The notes: generated by a model not told the origin, from the letters alone. DNA of 64,000 nt from an uncultured Bacteroidales bacterium (GCA_947630665.1 CANRID010000007.1:1-64000); one strand, 5' to 3'; positions 20,471 through 31,662 are shown, numbered from the stretch's first letter. Translations and numbers: made by a program.

Positions 20471-21682
20471 ATGGCATCAATCAAATTAAAATTCAGAGCG
20501 CATACGGATAACAAGAAAGAGGGTGCGTTGTATTTTCAAGTCATACACGAGAGAGTGGTCAAGCAGGTTAAGACCGATTATCGCATATTTGAATACGAGT
20601 GGGATAAGCGACGCGGAGACATTGTCAAAGAGTTTCCACTATCGGCGGCACGAAACGAGACATTGAGGATTGTCCGCGACAAGATTTTGTGGGAGCAAAG
20701 GAAGTTGGAGCAGATTGCCAAATCTTTTGAGAATATCGGCCAGCCATACACAGCCGATGAGATAATCCACCGCTACAAAGAATCTGCATCGGACAAAACA
20801 ACCGTCTTTGAGTACATGCGTCATCAGTCGGAACGGATGAAGAAGCTCGGCAGAACAAGAACGGGCGAAACCTATCAGCAAACATTGCACAGTTTTATGC
20901 GGTTCCGCAATGGCGTTGATTTATATTTCGATATGTTCTATGCCGATATGGCCGAGCAGTACGAGAGTTATATGCGGGCGAATTGTCTGAGCCGCAATAC
21001 GACCTCTTTTTATATGCGGATTCTTCGGTGTATTTATAACCGGGCTGTCGAGGATGGTCTTGCCCAGCAAAACAATCCGTTCAAAAGAGTCTATACAGGC
21101 GTAGATAAAACAGCCAAACGGGCCATATCGATTAAAGAGATCAAGCGGATCAAGGAATTAGACCTTGCGGATAAACCGGATCTGGATTTCGTCCGCGATC
21201 TGTTTATGCTCTCATTCTATCTTCGTGGAATGTCGTTTATCGATCTGGCTTATTTGCGTAAAAAAGACCTTGCCAATGGCTATATTACCTATATCCGCAA
21301 AAAGACCGGGCAGCAGCTTACGATTCGCTGGGAGCGGTCGATGCAGGAGATTATCGACAAATACCCCGAAAATCCGACACCATATCTGTTGCCGGTCATC
21401 ACGAGGCAAGACGGTACGGAACGCAAACAATACCTCAATAAGATACTGTTTGTCAATCGTAAACTGAAACAGATTGCACAATTGGCGAAGATTGCCACGC
21501 CGCTGACGATGTATGTCAGCCGCCATAGCTGGGCAAGCATCGCCAAGTCGAAAAATATTCCGCTAAGCGTCATCAGCGAGGGCATGGGACACGACAACGA
21601 AGAAACCACACGCATCTATCTCGCCTCACTTGACACAAGTGCGGTAGATAAGGCTAATTGTCTTATCTTAAAAGATTTGTAA
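20471..21682 (+). CDS. tyrosine site-specific recombinase / phage-integrase family with SAM-like domain
   Basis: 'FMLSFYLRGMSFIDLAYLRKKDL', 'YVSRHSWASIAKSKN', 'ISEGMGHDNEETTRIYLASLD' (R..H-x-x..Y catalytic pattern). Confidence 0.93.
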   Translation: MASIKLKFRAHTDNKKEGALYFQVIHERVVKQVKTDYRIFEYEWDKRRGDIVKEFPLSAARNETLRIVRDKILWEQRKLEQIAKSFENIGQPYTADEIIHRYKESASDKTTVFEYMRHQSERMKKLGRTRTGETYQQTLHSFMRFRNGVDLYFDMFYADMAEQYESYMRANCLSRNTTSFYMRILRCIYNRAVEDGLAQQNNPFKRVYTGVDKTAKRAISIKEIKRIKELDLADKPDLDFVRDLFMLSFYLRGMSFIDLAYLRKKDLANGYITYIRKKTGQQLTIRWERSMQEIIDKYPENPTPYLLPVITRQDGTERKQYLNKILFVNRKLKQIAQLAKIATPLTMYVSRHSWASIAKSKNIPLSVISEGMGHDNEETTRIYLASLDTSAVDKANCLILKDL

Positions 21683-21723
21683 CCAGTCGTATATGGTGAA
21701 ATATGTTGAGCGAAAAGACGAAC

Positions 21724-21912
21724 CTCTTGTTAAGAGTTATAGTTGATATTGCAAAGATACGCATAATATTGTAAAATCTGAGTTTTTGCCTTTTTTATAA
21801 TAGGACATGAAAGACATTTTATCAGAATTTGTTTGGCAATTCAATCTACATTGATTTCACAATTAATTGATTTACAATGCAAATATCCCTATAATATATC
21901 TCTTAACAAGAG
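21724..21912. repeat. putative invertible promoter segment bounded by 13-bp perfect inverted repeats
   Basis: CTCTTGTTAAGAG (21724-21736) and its exact reverse complement CTCTTAACAAGAG (21900-21912); TATCTTTG -7 box on the minus strand at 21753-21760; tyrosine recombinase gene ends 41 bp upstream. Confidence 0.75.
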
Positions 21913-22929
21913 ATGTTTGTAGAAATTGATATATTAGAAGATAACATATTCCTGCTTTCGCCTGAATTACTGAATATCTTGCTTAAAGACCATACCACGA
22001 GCAAGGAGGATATTCAGCACAATATCTTTTGGGCAACTTCCGATTATGAATATTTGGGCAATGGTTATCAATATGATTCGCCTATTCTTCCTTGTCTGAT
22101 TACCGGAGATAACGGACATGTCATCATGCCCCGTGTTCTTAAAAGCCGTGATACACAAACTGCGCGTTCACGGGACATGGCAGAGGTGTTTACCCCGTCA
22201 TGGATATGCAATGCACAGAACAATCTGATTGATGAAGCGTGGTTTGGGAGAAAGGATGTGTTCAATACGGAATACACGGACGAACAAGGATACCATCGGT
22301 GGCAGCCCAATGCGGAGAAGATTCAATTTCCGAAAGGCAAGACTTGGAAGGATTATGTTCGTGACACCCGGTTAGAGATATCCTGCGGAGAAGCCCCTTA
22401 CATAGTAAGCCGGTATGATACCACAAACGGAGAGGCTATCCCAATAGAAGGACGTATCGGACTCCTCGATCGCAAGTTGCGGGTAGTAGGTGAAAATACG
22501 GAAACCTCCGGTGAATGGTTGGAATGGACACAGGAAGCATATAAGAGTACTTACGCTTACGAATGGCAAGGCGACAATTTACTGATTGCCCGAGAATCAA
22601 TGCTCATCTCCTTTATCGAATACTATCAACAGAAATTCGGCAAGCAGCCCTTGTTGAAATCCATCAATTATATCGCCTACATCATTTCGTGGAATGTATG
22701 GCAGATGGACGGGCTGAAAGGTGTCGTTCCGAATAGTTGCGGTGAACGCAGGGAAATTGTTGCCGACCTGTTCGGAACAAGGGAAGAAGTCAGTCAATGC
22801 GAAGGTTGTCTGAAAGATGACATACGCAGGCACAACGGTATCTATTGCCAAATCAAGGACTGGCGGGCAAAAGACCCTAAAACGGGAAAAACGGGAAAAC
22901 GAATCCGATTTATCGACCTCATAAAATAG
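21913..22929 (+). CDS. restriction endonuclease subunit M-like protein (N6-adenine MTase-like SAM-binding motifs)
   Basis: 'DMAEVFTPSWICNAQNNLIDEAWFG' (motif X-like) and 'RLEISCGEAPYIVSRYD' (motif I-like); 6 nt from the next ORF. Confidence 0.7.
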   Translation: MFVEIDILEDNIFLLSPELLNILLKDHTTSKEDIQHNIFWATSDYEYLGNGYQYDSPILPCLITGDNGHVIMPRVLKSRDTQTARSRDMAEVFTPSWICNAQNNLIDEAWFGRKDVFNTEYTDEQGYHRWQPNAEKIQFPKGKTWKDYVRDTRLEISCGEAPYIVSRYDTTNGEAIPIEGRIGLLDRKLRVVGENTETSGEWLEWTQEAYKSTYAYEWQGDNLLIARESMLISFIEYYQQKFGKQPLLKSINYIAYIISWNVWQMDGLKGVVPNSCGERREIVADLFGTREEVSQCEGCLKDDIRRHNGIYCQIKDWRAKDPKTGKTGKRIRFIDLIK

Positions 22930-22935
22930 TGCAGC

Positions 22936-25900
22936 ATGAAATTCACATCTTCACTAAAATTGAAACTGATCTATGTGTTCCGCATCAACGATGCCGCACA
23001 CAGAGGGTGTCTGAAGGTGGGTGAAGCCACTTGTAACGATGACAGCGTTTTGGGGCTTGCTCCGAACAGCAAAGCTCTCAACGACTCTGCGAAGAAGCGC
23101 ATTAACCAATATACGCAGACGGCCGGCATCGCCTACGACCTCTTATATACGGAGCTTACCCTATACAACAGCAAAAAAGGCTTGTGTTCTTTCAACGATA
23201 AGGAAGTGCATCATGTGCTGGAGCGTTCCGGTATTAAGAAAAAGATATTCGATACCGAGAACAAAGCCAACAAATGGTTCATCACGGACCTTGAAACGGT
23301 CAAACGGGCCATAACAGCAGTTAAGGAGGGACGGGAATCGCTCTCTTCCGCAGAAGTATCACATGACCGAACTCCGATTGTGTTCCGTCCTGAACAACGG
23401 GAAGCCATCGAAAAGACCAAGAAGCAATTCAAGAAAGGCAATCAGATGTTGTGGAATGCCAAGATGCGTTTCGGCAAAACGTTGTCGGCCTTGCAAGTGG
23501 TAAAAGATATGGATTTCGGCCGGACTTTGATTCTTACCCATCGCCCTGTGGTGGATAGCGGTTGGTTCGAGGATTTCGGCAAGATATTCTATGATAGTCC
23601 CGGTTTTGCATATGGTTCAAAGAACAATGGTGATAACCATGTTTCATTAGAAACGAGAGCGAAACAGGGCAGATGCAAATATGTGTATTTCGCTTCCATG
23701 CAGGACTTGCGCGGTTCCGAACTCGTAGGCGGCAACTTTGACAAGAACGATGATGTGTTTGCTACCGCATGGGATTGCATCATCGTGGACGAAGCACACG
23801 AGGGGACACAGACGGAACTGGGCAAGGCGGTCATACAGGAACTGACAAAAGCCGATACCAAGATATTGCGCCTTTCCGGCACTCCGTTCAATCTGTTGGA
23901 TGATTTCAAAGAGGATGAAATATATACTTGGGACTATGTAATGGAACAACGGGCCAAGGCTTCGTGGGATTTGATACATTTCGGTGATCCGAATCCATAC
24001 GCTTCCCTGCCCACGATGAACATCTACACCTACGATCTCGGGCGGTTGCTCCATGAGTTCGTGGATGAGGATGTGGCTTTCAACTTCCGCGAGTTTTTCC
24101 GTGTCAATGAGGCCGGGAACTTTATCCACGAAAAAGACGTAAAGGCATTCTTGAATCTTATCACCAAAGAAGACAAGGAGAGCTGCTATCCCTTTGCCAA
24201 CGAGGAATACCGCAATATCTTCCGACATACCCTATGGATGCTGCCGGGCGTGAAAGAGGCTCGCGCCATGAGTGTCATGCTGCAATCACACCCTGTATTC
24301 CAACATTTCAAGGTAGTAAATGTAGCGGGAAACGGTGACGAGGACGAAGAGAGCAAAGATGCGCTTGTCGCGGTGGAAGAAGCCATCGGTAAAGACCCTG
24401 ATGCCACACGCACCATCACCCTGTCTTGCGGACGATTGACCACCGGCGTCAGTGTCAAGGCATGGACAGGCGTATTTATGCTGTCCGGCTCATACAATAC
24501 CGCCGCCTCAAGTTATATGCAGACCATCTTCCGTGTGCAGACACCTGCTACTATCAATGGAAGGGTTAAGGAGCAGTGTTATGTGTTTGATTTCGCACCG
24601 GACAGGACACTGAAAGTCATTGCCGAGACGGCGAAGATTTCAGCCAAGGCAGGAAAGACCAGCGGCAACGACCGCAAGATTATGGGCGAGTTCCTGAACT
24701 TCTGCCCGATTATTTCCATCGAAGGCTCCAAGATGAACCAGTTCGATGTACCCAGAATGTTGGAGCAACTCAAACGTGTTTATGTGGAAAGGGTTGTCCG
24801 CAACGGTTTTGAGGACAGGAGCCTATATAATGATGAGTTGATGAAACTCGATGATTTGGAGTTGCAGGAGTTTGACGACCTGAAAAAGATTATCGGTCAG
24901 ACCAAAGTCATGCCCAAGACCAATCAGGTGGACATCAACAATCAGGGATTGACCGATGAACAATATGAGGAACTGGAAGACCTCGAAAAGAAATCCAAGA
25001 AGAAAGGCAAAGACAAACAGCCGTTGACGGAAGAGGAGAAGAAACGGCTCGAAGAGCTGAAAAAGAAAAAGAACAACCGTGAAGCCGCCATTTCCATTCT
25101 TCGGGGTATCTCCATCCGTATGCCCTTGCTGATTTATGGCGCAGAGTTACAAGATGAATCTCAAGAAATAACGATTGACAACTTCGCCTCGCTTATCGAC
25201 CCGCAATCGTGGGAAGAGTTTATGCCGAAAGGAGTTACCAAACAGAAGTTCAACAGCATCAAGAAATACTACGACCCGGAGATATTCTGTGCGGCAGGCA
25301 AACGCATTCGCGCCATAGCCCGAGCTGCGGACAAGCTGAATGTGGAAGAGCGCATCGAACGCATCACGGATATTTTCAGCACATTCCGCAATCCCGACAA
25401 GGAAACGGTGCTTACGCCTTGGCGTGTGGTGAATATGCACCTTGGGGATTGTCTGGGCGGTTATAACTTCTTCGAAAAAGGTTATGAAACCACATTGTCC
25501 GAACCTCGTTTCATTGACCGAGGCGAAGTGACGGCCAATGTATTCGCCCCGGATTCCCGAATCCTTGAAATCAACTCGAAGTCCGGCTTATATCCACTTT
25601 ACATGGCATACAGCATTTACCGCGCAAGGGTAAAGGATTCTTTATTTTCAGTGTCAAGCATAGAGGATGAACAGAGAATCTGGGACAAAGTGGTGGAGGA
25701 AAACATCTTTGTCATCTGCAAGACGCCTATGGCAAAAGCCATTACCCGCCGTACACTTCTTGGCTTCCGCAAAGGAAAAACCAATATGTGGGCGCCGGAA
25801 GATTTAATCAACAAAATTAAAAACCAGCCCGAACTCTTTATCAGCCGCGTTACGAAGGCTTCAAAGTGGGGCATCTTGAACATAGACATGATGAAATTCA

Positions 25901-26937
25901 ACGCTATTGTAGGTAATCCTCCTTATCAGGAAGTAGATGGTGGTGGAATTGGTGATAGTGCTAAACCTATTTATCACTTCTTTGTTGGCATTGCGAAAAG
26001 AATTAATCCGAACTACATGAGTATGATTATGCCATCTCGTTGGTTAAAAGGTGGCAAAGGATTATTCAAATTTAGAGAAGAAATGCTTTCAGACCCATGT
26101 CTTTCTGTTCTTTATGATTATGCGGATGCTGGTGTATGTTTTGGGAATATTCATATTGATGGCGGAATTTGTTACTTCCGTTGGGATAGAAATAAAAAGC
26201 ATGTGGCTCAACAAGTATCTTATTCATACCAAGATCTTTCAGGTTACAGGAGTACATCAATACGTGTTCTTGCGGATGAAGATTTAAATGCCGTCATTAG
26301 GGATGTCCGTCAGCAATCTATTGTAGAAAAAGCATTGCGTCAGAATCAACCTACTTTTGACACTATTGTGTCTCCAAGAAATCCTTTTGGCTTTTATGCA
26401 GATTTGTTTAACCGCCCTGAAAATTATTCATATCTCCATATTTCTGATTATGAAAATGACGGATATGTTCCAATTTATGGTGTTATAGGTATAAAGGGCG
26501 GTGCTAAGCGTATCACGAAATTTATATTAAAAGAAGAAATACTCAAATCCACTTCGAGTATTGACGCATATAAAATATTCTTTTCCAAGGCTTATATGAC
26601 AACATCTACTGTCCCACCAGAATTTATATGTGGACAGCCAGGAGATGTGTGTACGGAAACTTTTCTTAAAATTGGAGATTTCACATCTTCTATAGAAATG
26701 GAATGTTGTGCCAAGTACATAAAAACGAAATTCTTTAGAGCATTACTGTTCTTTAATCGTAGTTCTCTTAACATTTCTCAGTCCACTTTCTCACTTATTC
26801 CTTTGCAGAATTTTGTGGATGATAGTGACATTGACTGGAGCAAAAGCGTATCAGAAATAGATACACAACTCTACGCCAAATACAATCTGACAGAAGAAGA
26901 AATCGCCTTCATCGAATCAATGATTAAACCGATGTAA
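22936..26937 (+). CDS. 1333-aa restriction-modification fusion: N-terminal GIY-YIG-like domain, SF2 helicase, Eco57I-type methyltransferase
   Basis: 'LIYVFRINDAAHRGCLKVGEAT...RINQYT...DKEVHHVL'; Walker A-like 'WNAKMRFGKTLSAL' and DEAH 'IIVDEAHEGTQ'; 'FNAIVGNPPYQEVDGG' motif IV. Confidence 0.78.
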   Translation: MKFTSSLKLKLIYVFRINDAAHRGCLKVGEATCNDDSVLGLAPNSKALNDSAKKRINQYTQTAGIAYDLLYTELTLYNSKKGLCSFNDKEVHHVLERSGIKKKIFDTENKANKWFITDLETVKRAITAVKEGRESLSSAEVSHDRTPIVFRPEQREAIEKTKKQFKKGNQMLWNAKMRFGKTLSALQVVKDMDFGRTLILTHRPVVDSGWFEDFGKIFYDSPGFAYGSKNNGDNHVSLETRAKQGRCKYVYFASMQDLRGSELVGGNFDKNDDVFATAWDCIIVDEAHEGTQTELGKAVIQELTKADTKILRLSGTPFNLLDDFKEDEIYTWDYVMEQRAKASWDLIHFGDPNPYASLPTMNIYTYDLGRLLHEFVDEDVAFNFREFFRVNEAGNFIHEKDVKAFLNLITKEDKESCYPFANEEYRNIFRHTLWMLPGVKEARAMSVMLQSHPVFQHFKVVNVAGNGDEDEESKDALVAVEEAIGKDPDATRTITLSCGRLTTGVSVKAWTGVFMLSGSYNTAASSYMQTIFRVQTPATINGRVKEQCYVFDFAPDRTLKVIAETAKISAKAGKTSGNDRKIMGEFLNFCPIISIEGSKMNQFDVPRMLEQLKRVYVERVVRNGFEDRSLYNDELMKLDDLELQEFDDLKKIIGQTKVMPKTNQVDINNQGLTDEQYEELEDLEKKSKKKGKDKQPLTEEEKKRLEELKKKKNNREAAISILRGISIRMPLLIYGAELQDESQEITIDNFASLIDPQSWEEFMPKGVTKQKFNSIKKYYDPEIFCAAGKRIRAIARAADKLNVEERIERITDIFSTFRNPDKETVLTPWRVVNMHLGDCLGGYNFFEKGYETTLSEPRFIDRGEVTANVFAPDSRILEINSKSGLYPLYMAYSIYRARVKDSLFSVSSIEDEQRIWDKVVEENIFVICKTPMAKAITRRTLLGFRKGKTNMWAPEDLINKIKNQPELFISRVTKASKWGILNIDMMKFNAIVGNPPYQEVDGGGIGDSAKPIYHFFVGIAKRINPNYMSMIMPSRWLKGGKGLFKFREEMLSDPCLSVLYDYADAGVCFGNIHIDGGICYFRWDRNKKHVAQQVSYSYQDLSGYRSTSIRVLADEDLNAVIRDVRQQSIVEKALRQNQPTFDTIVSPRNPFGFYADLFNRPENYSYLHISDYENDGYVPIYGVIGIKGGAKRITKFILKEEILKSTSSIDAYKIFFSKAYMTTSTVPPEFICGQPGDVCTETFLKIGDFTSSIEMECCAKYIKTKFFRALLFFNRSSLNISQSTFSLIPLQNFVDDSDIDWSKSVSEIDTQLYAKYNLTEEEIAFIESMIKPM

Positions 26938-26939
26938 AA

Positions 26940-26969
26940 AACGAGGACAAGTATAACTCTTGTCCTCGT
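26940..26969. terminator. bidirectional intrinsic terminator between convergent operons
   Basis: ACGAGGACAAG-TATAACT-CTTGTCCTCGT perfect 11-bp stem flanked by A-run and T-run. Confidence 0.8.
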
Positions 26970-26975
26970 TAAAAT

Positions 26976-27149
26976 TCACTTTTCTTTTCGTACACCCTTA
27001 AACGGTGTACCATCCTGTTTTACATCAATAAAACGTCCAGTATCTTTATCCCTTTTTACCCATTGTTCTGTTTTAGGATTAAAAACCTGAGAACGTTTTC
27101 TTACTGCACCATTACGATGTCCGTCTCCTGACGGTGGATTTGTTGCCAT
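26976..27149 (-). CDS. small 57-aa basic protein, last gene of the AAA/RloB operon
   Basis: MATNPPSGDGHRNGAVRKRSQVFNPKTEQWVKRDKDTGRFIDVKQDGTPFKGVRKEK*; below the ORF-track size cutoff; starts 13 bp after the upstream stop. Confidence 0.75.
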   Translation of the reverse strand: MATNPPSGDGHRNGAVRKRSQVFNPKTEQWVKRDKDTGRFIDVKQDGTPFKGVRKEK

Positions 27150-27162
27150 AACCTTTTTGTCT

Positions 27163-28731
27163 TTATAGTTGTTCTATGATTTTCTGCATTGCCTCACTGC
27201 CCTTTGATAATAGATTCTTTGCAGCCTCTTTTGTATTCAATTTTTCAATACTTAATCCCACATAGGCTAAAGCTTGTTTCTCATTGTCTTTCGTGATTTC
27301 CGCCCCATTATGATGAGCAAGTGAGAGTATTGAACGTAATGTCCTTTCGTTTTTTAAGAAAGTATCGAATTCCGTATCATCAATTTTAAGATGTTCAAAT
27401 AATCTATGTAAGTATGCAATCGATGCCCCCCTCTTTTCTTCTTCTGTAGGATTAAGGATGTTTTTATAGAGTTTAGCCTTATTTAGACTATCATAAAACA
27501 TCAATCCAATTTGTTGAAGTAACGGACTGAGTGCAAAATAATCATTATCCTGCAAAAGATTAATTTTGTCGGGAATTTCATTCTGAGCATGATTCAAAGG
27601 CTTGATAAGCGGGAATCCATATTCTTCTTCCCACTTACGTAATAATGTTTTATACGTATCCCTAAAAACGAAGTCAATTGATTCGGCAGAAGAATTCCAA
27701 TTGCCTTGGAACATTGTTTCTTGAAAATGCCGGCTAAAACCACGTCCGTCAGGAGCGATGTTGTAACCCTTCCAAGTATTTTGTTCTCTATACGGGAGAT
27801 CCAATACATCTTTTAGAAAGGCAACAATATAACTCTCATTATCGTTGTCGCAACGAATAGAGAAATCAGGAGTGGTGATTCTAAGTGATTCAACACAATA
27901 TTTTTCGCGTCCCATATAACGAGAAAGTAATTTCTTTTCAAAGAAAATCGGAGTATATGGGAATGTGTTTTCATCAGACAATATGTCTAACCCATTCTCG
28001 TCTGTTGCAATAATATATCGAGCGTTCATCGATTTCATATACTCTTTAAGTGGTGTGTGCTTAAAGACAGCCTTTCCATTGAACCAATTACGCATATTGG
28101 TAAAACACGGATTTACCATAATATTGTAATGCTGTAATGCTGTCCTACTTATATCTTTGCCTCGTTCAGGAGTACATTTATATTCAAATGTTGGAGAATA
28201 ATCATTCAAATTGTATTCAATTTCTGATTGACAGTGGCAGATTAAATCCATTCCCTTCGCTGCCATAAATTCAGTAAGGTATCTATTAAGTATTTTTGCA
28301 GAAGTATCTGTGATTTCACATACAAGAGTACCTTTATCATCAAAAAACAGCCTTGTGCTTTCCTTATGCACCTCATATAGATTATGGTAGAAAACAATTT
28401 CTTCTGCTACTCTAATCTGCACGAATCGGTCAACTCCATTTTTGAAATCACGGATTATCGTCAATGGCTCAAAGCCATCGTGTACAAAAGGTTTATATGT
28501 ACATCCATTAATTAAAGCACCTCGCACATTGTCAGGTATATCCACGGTATATGATGATAATGCATCGGTTATTTTAGATGGAGTCGCCAAGTAACACCAG
28601 TACTTATAGTAAACATCAATTACTCCGTCCTTGTAATGCTGCTTCTTATATAACCACACCCAATCATTTGCTAAAAAATGATTGGAGAGAAGTTCTATAT
28701 GTTGTTTATGTTCAAATTCTTCTCGAGTCAT
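27163..28731 (-). CDS. unrecognised 522-aa protein in defence operon
   Basis: Long ORF co-directional with and 6 nt downstream of the RloB-like gene; no family recognised. Confidence 0.8.
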   Translation of the reverse strand: MTREEFEHKQHIELLSNHFLANDWVWLYKKQHYKDGVIDVYYKYWCYLATPSKITDALSSYTVDIPDNVRGALINGCTYKPFVHDGFEPLTIIRDFKNGVDRFVQIRVAEEIVFYHNLYEVHKESTRLFFDDKGTLVCEITDTSAKILNRYLTEFMAAKGMDLICHCQSEIEYNLNDYSPTFEYKCTPERGKDISRTALQHYNIMVNPCFTNMRNWFNGKAVFKHTPLKEYMKSMNARYIIATDENGLDILSDENTFPYTPIFFEKKLLSRYMGREKYCVESLRITTPDFSIRCDNDNESYIVAFLKDVLDLPYREQNTWKGYNIAPDGRGFSRHFQETMFQGNWNSSAESIDFVFRDTYKTLLRKWEEEYGFPLIKPLNHAQNEIPDKINLLQDNDYFALSPLLQQIGLMFYDSLNKAKLYKNILNPTEEEKRGASIAYLHRLFEHLKIDDTEFDTFLKNERTLRSILSLAHHNGAEITKDNEKQALAYVGLSIEKLNTKEAAKNLLSKGSEAMQKIIEQL

Positions 28732-28737
28732 ATGAAA

Positions 28738-29340
28738 CTATAATTCATTAAGTAATTCAATGATTTTGTGTATCTCAGAGTATGCCCTCAAATCCTCCGG
28801 TGATTCCTTACAGAGCTGGCACAATTTTTCGGAATTTGACATTGCCCGTTCCAAATCTCCATTCTCAGTCAAGAACTTGTAGAGGTTGATACGTATGAAA
28901 TATCGCTTTGTCTTTTCATATCCCGGCATATATTTCTGCAATTCAGGAAGCAGTTGTTCGTAGCTGTCATATCGCCGACAGACCACATTCGGCAGGAAGT
29001 GGAGCAAAAACCAAAATTCAGTGCATGGATTCGTTTCTACAAACATCACTCTTTCGGCATACTTCTTTGCACTGTACTTTCTCTTTGCCCGCTGATAAAG
29101 CTGCATTTCAGAAGGGAACTGTAACAGTCTGTCCATGTCAAACAGGCATACGATATAATCATATTGCTTGTTCAGGTAGGATTCCGCCAATTTCAGAATA
29201 TGATTGATGTCGCTGTGCTGTGGAAAATCCGGAGCGACCTTGAAAGGATAGCGACACGCGATTCTCAAAGAGTCGAAATAGAACCATTCCGTTTCTCCTT
29301 CGCCTATGATGGCGATACTTTTTGTTACTGTTCCCGGCAT
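28738..29340 (-). CDS. RloB-like protein (AbiLii-type, TOPRIM-related)
   Basis: 'IIGEGETEWFYFDSL', 'DYIVCLFDMDR', 'NPCTEFWFLLHF'. Confidence 0.83.
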   Translation of the reverse strand: MPGTVTKSIAIIGEGETEWFYFDSLRIACRYPFKVAPDFPQHSDINHILKLAESYLNKQYDYIVCLFDMDRLLQFPSEMQLYQRAKRKYSAKKYAERVMFVETNPCTEFWFLLHFLPNVVCRRYDSYEQLLPELQKYMPGYEKTKRYFIRINLYKFLTENGDLERAMSNSEKLCQLCKESPEDLRAYSEIHKIIELLNEL

Positions 29341-29344
29341 ATCA

Positions 29345-30643
29345 TCAGTCGTTTAGGTTGATATACTGACTGCCCAAGAACGGCAACTTTACCAATTTCC
29401 CCTGCTTGTAGGCGTTATACGGGGAAAGATTCTTATGCAGTCCCAAAGAAGAAAGGCGCACTATTTTTGTTTCGCCAAATTCGTTCTTATCAGTGAACCA
29501 TATCGTATCACGGCGAATGAAATCCTCGTTGAGCAGATTGATGTCGTGCGTGGTCAGGAGCATCTGGGATGTCCCGTTGCTGTTTGCCAAAAATACTTTT
29601 ATGAAATAAGCCAGCAATTCATAGTGAATGCTTGTTTCCACTTCATCGATAGGCACGAACCGATTGGTCTTTAACAAGAAATTCAGTATCACTGCCATTC
29701 CCAAGAACCTCATGGTGCCATTGGACTCGTATTCTTCCGACAAATCATATACTTTATCACCTGCTTTATGCTTGAAGGTCAGTTCCGTATTTGTGATTTT
29801 TCCTTTTCTAAGCATTTCTGCCTTTGCTTCACTACCAATAGGGGCATTCTGAATCAGTTGTTCCAGTTCCGGAGTAATCAGTTCTTCCTCTTCGTGCAAT
29901 ACCACATCTTCTATATTGAAATCGGACGCTTTCAGGAAGTTCAAGATGAATTTCTTCAAATCCCCTGTTTCGTCTTTATCCAATCGTGATTTGACATATC
30001 CCGAAAGCAGCATACCGGGAGCCAATAGCTCTTTTACCTGTTTGACAAAATAATCGTACACATCATTCAGCTTGGTACGTTCTACGTTGCTTTTGCCAAA
30101 TGCGGCAAGCACACTGCAATTATTGATAGTGTTGCCTGAAATCACATCCTGGCTCTTCTTCGTCATTTTCAGATTTACACCAAAATCGATGGTAGTAGAA
30201 TCTGTTGCGGCATCATAACTGCGGTTATAAAGTTTTGTAGGACGAATGGAATCATAAACAATCAATGTCTCGGAATAAATATGCTTGGCATCCAACTCAA
30301 AACTGAGTATGTACTTCGACTGATTGATATAGAATACCATCGACATCTTTGTCTTTTCATTCCTTGAAGTGTCATCTAACATGAAAGGGACAACCCCGGT
30401 TTTCTCATTCCTGTCTTTTGGCATTCTCAAAACCAACATCCTGAAAAATTCGATGGCATTTAATATGTTTGTTTTGCCGGACGCATTGGCACCATAGATT
30501 ATTCCCACTTTCAGTAATCTTACTCCTTCCTTGACTTCATACGAATATTCATCAGACATAAAAGTGTCCGTCGTCGGTTCAAAACTGATTTTCTGATTCG
30601 ATTTAATGGAGAAATAATTCTCAATGCTGAACTCTGCTATCAT
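29345..30643 (-). CDS. AAA family ATPase, RloA/AbiLi-type (AAA_15/AAA_21)
   Basis: Walker A 'GIIYGANASGKTNILNAIEFF'; Walker B 'RFVPIDEVETSIHYELLAYF'; 'LLTTHDINLL' H-loop. Confidence 0.88.
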   Translation of the reverse strand: MIAEFSIENYFSIKSNQKISFEPTTDTFMSDEYSYEVKEGVRLLKVGIIYGANASGKTNILNAIEFFRMLVLRMPKDRNEKTGVVPFMLDDTSRNEKTKMSMVFYINQSKYILSFELDAKHIYSETLIVYDSIRPTKLYNRSYDAATDSTTIDFGVNLKMTKKSQDVISGNTINNCSVLAAFGKSNVERTKLNDVYDYFVKQVKELLAPGMLLSGYVKSRLDKDETGDLKKFILNFLKASDFNIEDVVLHEEEELITPELEQLIQNAPIGSEAKAEMLRKGKITNTELTFKHKAGDKVYDLSEEYESNGTMRFLGMAVILNFLLKTNRFVPIDEVETSIHYELLAYFIKVFLANSNGTSQMLLTTHDINLLNEDFIRRDTIWFTDKNEFGETKIVRLSSLGLHKNLSPYNAYKQGKLVKLPFLGSQYINLND

Positions 30644-30672
30644 AATCGTTGAATTTGTCTGTTACACGGCTC

Positions 30673-30680
30673 AAAGATAC
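30673..30680 (-). promoter_or_regulatory. -7 box (TATCTTTG) for the AAA/RloB operon
   Basis: Plus strand CAAAGATA 30 bp upstream of the ATG; same octamer as in the invertible segment. Confidence 0.55.
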
Positions 30681-30924
30681 AAATAAAATTCTATTTTAAT
30701 AAATCATAATCGAAATTATTGTAATAAAACTACGATATATATAAATAAAATGAATATATATCCATCTATTTGGACTATACTTTATTTTTAATATTTGAGG
30801 TATTTTGCTTTGAGACGTTTATGGTTTGGAGCTTGGCAATCTCTTGTTGTTGAGAAAGGACTCCGGCCACTTTCTGATTTTTAAACTGTTTTTATGGGCA
30901 ATTTATTCTATCTTTACATTGCGT

Positions 30925-31662
30925 ATGAAAAAAGATTTCTTTTCCTGGAATCCCTGGCACGGCTGCCGGAAAGTAAGCGCCGGATGTCTGAATTGTTATG
31001 TATATCGGATCGACGGACGGCACGGGAAAGACAGTTCCGTGATAACCCGGACGGAAAATTTCGGACTGCCTCTGCACAGGAAAAGGGACGGGAAGTTCAA
31101 AATCCCGTCGGGAACCCTGCTTTATACATGCTTCAGTTCCGATTTTCTGATAGAGGAAGCGGATGCCTGGCGTCCGGAAGCATGGAAGATGATGCGCTTT
31201 AGGAAAGACGTGCATTTCCTTTTCATTACCAAACGGATAGACCGGTTGCAGAAATGCGTTCCTCCCGACTGGGGAGACGGATACGAAAATGTAACCGTTT
31301 GCTGTACGATGGAAAATCAGGAGCGTGCCGATTATCGGCTTCCCATTTATAAAGAGGCCCCCATCAAACACAAAATCATCATTTGCGAACCGCTGTTGGA
31401 AGAGATCGTTTTTCCGGCACCTTTGGAAGGATGGGTGGAGGAAATCATAGCGGGCGGAGAATCGGGGCCGGATGCCCGTCCCTGCGATTATAAATGGATA
31501 TTAAGCCTCAGGGAACAATGCATCCGCAACAGAGTCGGCTTCCGGTTCAAGCAGACGGGGGCGCGCTTTATAAAGGAAGGCCACCTGTACCGTATTCCCC
31601 GGCCATTCCAGTCTTCGCAGGCGAGGAAAGCGGATATCGACTATCATCCTGCAAAATGGTAA
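30925..31662 (+). CDS. DUF5131 family (phage Gp37/Gp68-like) protein
   Basis: 'FFSWNPWHGCRKVSAGCLNCYVYRID', 'VHFLFITKRIDRL', 'IIAGGESGPDARPCDYKWI'. Confidence 0.88.
   Translation: MKKDFFSWNPWHGCRKVSAGCLNCYVYRIDGRHGKDSSVITRTENFGLPLHRKRDGKFKIPSGTLLYTCFSSDFLIEEADAWRPEAWKMMRFRKDVHFLFITKRIDRLQKCVPPDWGDGYENVTVCCTMENQERADYRLPIYKEAPIKHKIIICEPLLEEIVFPAPLEGWVEEIIAGGESGPDARPCDYKWILSLREQCIRNRVGFRFKQTGARFIKEGHLYRIPRPFQSSQARKADIDYHPAKW

Follow-up and report, generated by a model that had tools for sequence, protein, structure and literature searches.

The operon at positions 26976-30643 of a 64,000-nucleotide stretch of DNA from an uncultured Bacteroidales bacterium (the window) raises the question of whether four closely spaced genes form one defence system or several. 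The four open reading frames (ORFs) are all on the minus strand and are separated by gaps of 4, 6, and 13 bp; the coordinates were checked, and those of the original prediction were borne out, as was the spacing. That prediction regarded the last two genes, which encode a 522-aa protein (here called U522) and a 57-aa basic protein, as a possible extension of the AbiL/RloAB system encoded by the first two. The analysis favors a mosaic operon in which three independent defence modules lie behind the rloAB promoter, a reading to which we give a probability of about 0.7. The first module would be the AbiL-type system rloA-rloB. The second would be a separate single-gene system for an abortive-infection RNase, independent of rloAB and captured downstream of it, and the third a widespread defence-associated tail consisting of the 57-aa gene and the terminator. 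The tight spacing would then reflect cargo captured behind an existing promoter and not a shared complex.

The first two genes appear to be a complete, standard AbiL-type system, and their assignment to AbiL/RloAB in the original prediction was correct. The rloA gene (29345-30643, minus strand) encodes a 432-aa AAA (ABC-like) ATPase of the RloA/AbiLi type, which matches AAA_21 (3.4e-25) and the PADLOC model AbiLi (5.4e-68). Directly downstream, after the 4-bp gap, rloB (28738-29340, minus strand) encodes a 200-aa TOPRIM-like protein of the RloB/AbiLii type, with matches to PF13707 (1.5e-30) and AbiLii (1.4e-19). The motifs GANASGKT, IDEVE, GEGETE, and LFDMDR were all found as predicted. The order of the two genes and the matches to both family models are those of AbiL, but the pair in the window is trailed by two genes that are absent from AbiL elsewhere. 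RloB is akin to OLD_TOPRIM by HHpred (PMC10440598), and RloAB shares with PARIS (AriA-AriB) the architecture of an ATPase and a TOPRIM-type effector (PMC12409363). Unlike PARIS, the RloB of the window fits PF13707 and not an AriB model. By analogy with PARIS (PMC12409363) and AbiL (PMC10440598), the RloA ATPase may sense infection and restrain the TOPRIM nuclease RloB.

Predicted signals for transcription are found at both ends of the operon. The element TATCTTTG (30672-30679, minus strand), read from the sequence ahead of rloA, has the form TAnnTTTG, which we take to be the -7 promoter type of Bacteroidota. It occupies the same position upstream of rloA in all five of the close rloAB loci that were aligned, and it is the putative shared promoter of the rloAB head. 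Since it is kept in these loci, capture of cargo behind the promoter would be a simple explanation for the arrangement. At the other end is an intrinsic terminator (26940-26970, minus strand), recognized by its fold energy and T tract and kept on a Phocaeicola plasmid. It is strong (dG -19.8, z -5.4), as had been predicted, but a bidirectional action is not supported, since the scan showed a T tract in the minus-strand orientation only. We infer that all four genes are cotranscribed from the rloA promoter. Their third-position GC content (GC3) is 49.0% in rloA, 50.7% in rloB, 30.8% in the U522 gene, and 17.2% in the short 57-aa gene, and the step at the junctions is counted as support for a mosaic operon.

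The 522-aa gene is not linked to RloAB in other genomes. RloB is present in 62 of the 199 related genomes searched; 60 loci were read, and the RloB gene could be called in 52. RloA is upstream of RloB in 51 of the 52 callable loci, while no gene of the U522 family is found in any of the 60 loci that were read. Similarly, neither RloA nor RloB is beside a U522 homologue among about 100 family genes from many phyla and an archaeon; near one Prevotella homologue an RloA-like ORF lies 3 kb off, past other genes. Co-occurrence with RloB was the test that the original prediction had set for itself, and it revealed no linkage. The tight spacing had also been taken as a sign that the two extra genes belong to the system. 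A same-strand ORF is found within 30 bp downstream of RloB in 17 of the 52 surveyed genes, and several of these ORFs are housekeeping-like (transaldolase-, RadC-, thioredoxin-, and carboxyltransferase-like, by reading of their sequences), so spacing is weak evidence of shared function here.

Comparison with close rloAB loci locates the boundaries of the modules. Six loci have nucleotide identity to the window of 87.9% (L313), 87.0% (L224), 83.7% (L259), 83.4% (L235), 77.0% (L225), and 74.7% (L226) by blastn, and in all six the similarity extends from about the rloA start or the promoter to junction 1 (28737-28754). The end points are 28737, 28739, 28742, 28744, 28747, and 28754, and the rloB stop is at 28738. 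Different systems then follow. L313 has SIR2 and HerA genes, whose PDB homologues are SIR2-HerA complexes (1.5e-22 and 1e-29). L259, a Phocaeicola plasmid, has Thoeris genes in the order ThsB-ThsA-ThsB (1e-72, 2e-192, and 6e-89), and L235 has Gabija GajA (2.9e-302) and a 535-aa ORF. L225 has an AbiL-like pair made up of a 357-aa AbiLi/PDC-M38A-like ATPase and a 201-aa ORF, and L226 has an intact CBASS cyclase (1.5e-87) and two further genes. L224 retains a 478-bp remnant of a CBASS cyclase that is 84% identical to the intact gene of L226. In L224 (4206-5200) rloAB also adjoins phage-like genes, and the remnant would represent the decay of a captured cassette.

The other boundary, junction 2 (27150-27162), lies between the U522 gene and the 57-aa gene. 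L259 resembles the window not only over rloAB but also over the 57-aa gene and the terminator (window 27150-26936, 88.5% identity), with Thoeris between them. Its similarity restarts at 27150, one base before the start codon of the 57-aa gene. Thoeris takes the precise place of the 522-aa gene of the window, and both flanks are homologous. This is the only arrangement found in which both flanks are kept around a different middle, and it is seen in L259 and in a second Phocaeicola plasmid with the same gene order. Complete defence systems have thus been swapped between two conserved flanks, rloAB on one side and the 57-aa gene on the other, and the breakpoints fall at the stop of rloB and the start of the 57-aa gene. 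Breakpoints at the nucleotide level indicate that defence systems with no relation to each other can come to lie in one tightly spaced operon, and they advise caution against guilt by adjacency in naming multi-gene systems. No direct repeats were found flanking the island, no rloAB was found in phage records, and no close rloB was found in viral contigs.

These comparisons bear on two other explanations of the operon. A four-gene extended AbiL/RloAB system, with the 522-aa and 57-aa proteins as dedicated subunits, would fit the single strand, the short gaps, and the single terminator. It is very improbable in view of the RloB loci that have no U522 homologue, the homologues that have no RloAB beside them, the loss of identity at the rloB stop with other systems taking the same position, and the break in GC3. 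As a conserved arrangement, the extension that had been proposed is refuted by these sequence comparisons; the two extra genes are not conserved members of AbiL. Alternatively, RloAB may be a constant sensor or regulator for whichever effector cassette comes after it (HEPN, TIR/SIR2, CD-NTase, GajA, or SIR2-HerA), so that cassettes plug in and do not passively hitch-hike. None of the seven close rloAB loci, including the window, lacks a downstream defence gene or remnant, six different kinds of system are found across them, and the rloA promoter element is conserved. However, distant RloAB pairs precede housekeeping-like genes or nothing, and the cassettes are complete systems able to work without a partner, as Thoeris, Gabija, and CBASS each do, which makes this explanation quite unlikely. 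It is likewise unlikely that the locus is a Bacteroidales exchangeable-cassette operon with rloAB as its constant head and the 57-aa gene plus terminator as its constant tail, in which RloAB senses for or regulates the effector in the middle, a new HEPN-type family occupying the slot in the window. If the rloAB slot were functional and not passive, it would represent a plug-in immune architecture.

In the mosaic reading the 522-aa gene is a module of its own, and judged by its homologues U522 is the founder of an undescribed, phylum-spanning family. The gene (27163-28731, minus strand) encodes a protein that the original prediction could not assign, and no match to it was found in Pfam, PADLOC, NCBIfam, PHROG, or the PDB sequences. 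Searches with the single 522-aa sequence found nothing in the genome contigs of close relatives or in viral contigs. The homologues, from many bacterial phyla and an archaeon, were found by phylum sampling and by looking for the core motif as a degenerate DNA pattern, and conservation was counted over 84 aligned full-length members. The core, LPxxEQxxWxxxNxxP (residues 312-327; 27751-27798, minus strand), has L312, W320, N324, and P327 in 100% of the members, P313 and Q317 in 99%, and E316 in 95%. No parallel to this core was found. Three distant relatives of 403-444 aa (L030, L031, and L032) have the U522-type C-terminal half and other N-termini, suggesting that the core and the R-x-H domain are reused in other architectures.

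The C-terminal domain of U522 is probably a HEPN-type RNase that uses R466 and H473, as suggested by the invariance of these residues, the helix content, and the genomic context. The domain (residues 398-522; 27166-27540, minus strand) is all-helical according to the models. R466 (27336-27334, minus strand) and H473 (27315-27313, minus strand), the putative catalytic pair, are both present in 84 of 84 members. They have five residues between them in 71 members, four in 12, and six in one, the U522 of the window. R is followed by S in 74 of the 84 members and by S or another polar residue in most. The HEPN signature is Rx4-6H with a polar residue after the R (PMC3710099), and U522 has this motif, borne in the models by an all-helical domain. 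In the AlphaFold model of the whole protein (pLDDT 84.6) the N-terminal half is rich in beta structure and the C-terminal domain, which carries the R-x-H motif, is helical; the C-terminal domain modelled alone has a pLDDT of 84.2. The beta-rich half and the core may sense infection or keep the RNase off until infection occurs, and RNA cleavage after infection would stop growth. The family would thus comprise probable RNases across bacterial phyla and an archaeon, with R466, H473, W320, and N324 as testable residues.

Searches for a solved or described relative of this domain gave few leads. Foldseek with the C-terminal model found no significant match to any solved HEPN in the PDB and nothing significant among viral structures. 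No Pfam HEPN family matched above threshold, the single weak match being that of the distant relative L032 to HEPN_Cthe2314 (E=0.04), and profile searches of the PDB with U522 gave non-significant matches only. The sole significant Foldseek match of the whole protein is to Avs3 (E 9.6e-4, TM 0.23), an unexplained lead.

The genomic neighbours of the U522 family are partly defence genes. A member lies between HsdS and HsdR in L065 and adjoins HsdS or HsdR in L087, L099, L103, and L111. Others adjoin an nSTAND3-Mrr gene (L018), another STAND-like ATPase (L119), AbiH (L016, 1.6e-71), or an ORF that by reading is SIR2-like (L075), and one is within a gamma-mobile-trio element (L012). Among 120 neighbours that were tallied, specificity subunits and restriction-modification (R-M) genes are the commonest, and ordinary genes (oxidoreductases and sulfatases, for example) also occur. 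Many homologues adjoin ordinary genes, and the linkage to defence is partial. The overall picture is of a mobile defence gene, self-contained for the most part, that in some cases is nested within another system. In Poribacteria and relatives (L092, L140, L071, L117, L137, L149, and L153), a PIN-domain gene encoding 136 aa shares 4 bp with the U522-family gene, and the two may form a two-gene toxin unit.

Other functions of U522 can be weighed against an independent HEPN-type RNase. The R and H residues could be structural in a domain that is no nuclease, for example in a binding protein akin to Avs-type sensors. The missing HEPN fold match and the similarity to Avs3 agree with this, but almost every one of the 84 diverse members has the published HEPN signature, R-x4-6-H with a polar residue after R, and we consider a non-nuclease unlikely. 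The family could also be a PrrC-like guard RNase, silenced by a partner enzyme and freed when a phage inhibits that partner. RloAB or the R-M enzyme nearby would be the partner in the window. PrrC provides a precedent, HEPN genes are known inside R-M operons (PMC3710099), and the five loci with HsdS or HsdR directly beside a family member are in line with it. Since most members are outside R-M operons and no constant partner is found across the family, a guard role is rather unlikely. Like the anticodon nucleases PrrC and RloC, U522 has an R-x-H nuclease signature and some relatives in type I R-M operons; unlike them, it has no fused ABC ATPase. Membership in PrrC/RloC was rejected, no ATPase domain being found in U522.

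ApeA (ApeA_NTD1 and HEPN_Apea) resembles U522 in its beta-rich N-terminal region (about 300 aa) and its C-terminal helical domain with R-x4-6-H, and also in that some U522-family members are embedded in R-M operons. However, the U522 family fits neither PF18862 nor PF18739 and has its own LPxxEQxxWxxxNxxP core. Assignment to ApeA was rejected: 14 members searched at E 0.5 gave no hit to PF18862 or PF18739, and the hhalign probability was 0.1. The same genome has a genuine ApeA gene with ApeA_NTD1 and HEPN_Apea (G000:C52:261-1550; L268, 207-1589), which adjoins a 389-aa ORF.

The last gene of the operon (26976-27149, minus strand) behaves as an independent tail gene that is widespread and associated with defence. 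Its 57-aa product matches the PADLOC candidate PDC-S38 over positions 1-57 of 57 (8.5e-36), showing that the ORF is real and not due to chance, and it also matches PHROG 12550 (6.5e-20); no difference from these families was found. The gene occurs in 61 plasmid records and 15 viral contigs. It is also found behind IetAS in two related genomes and in other plasmid contexts.

The genes at 20471-26937 converge on the RloAB operon, and together they are likely to be an integrated defence island. They begin with a tyrosine recombinase (20471-21682), after which come a 338-aa ORF and a 1333-aa enzyme with ResIII helicase and Eco57I methylase domains (PADLOC type IIG). The GC content is down to 35-42% at 26-31 kb. 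On the other side of the operon, an ORF that by reading is DUF5131-like (30826-31662) is divergent to rloA, and in L230 a similar ORF overlaps rloB by 4 bp.
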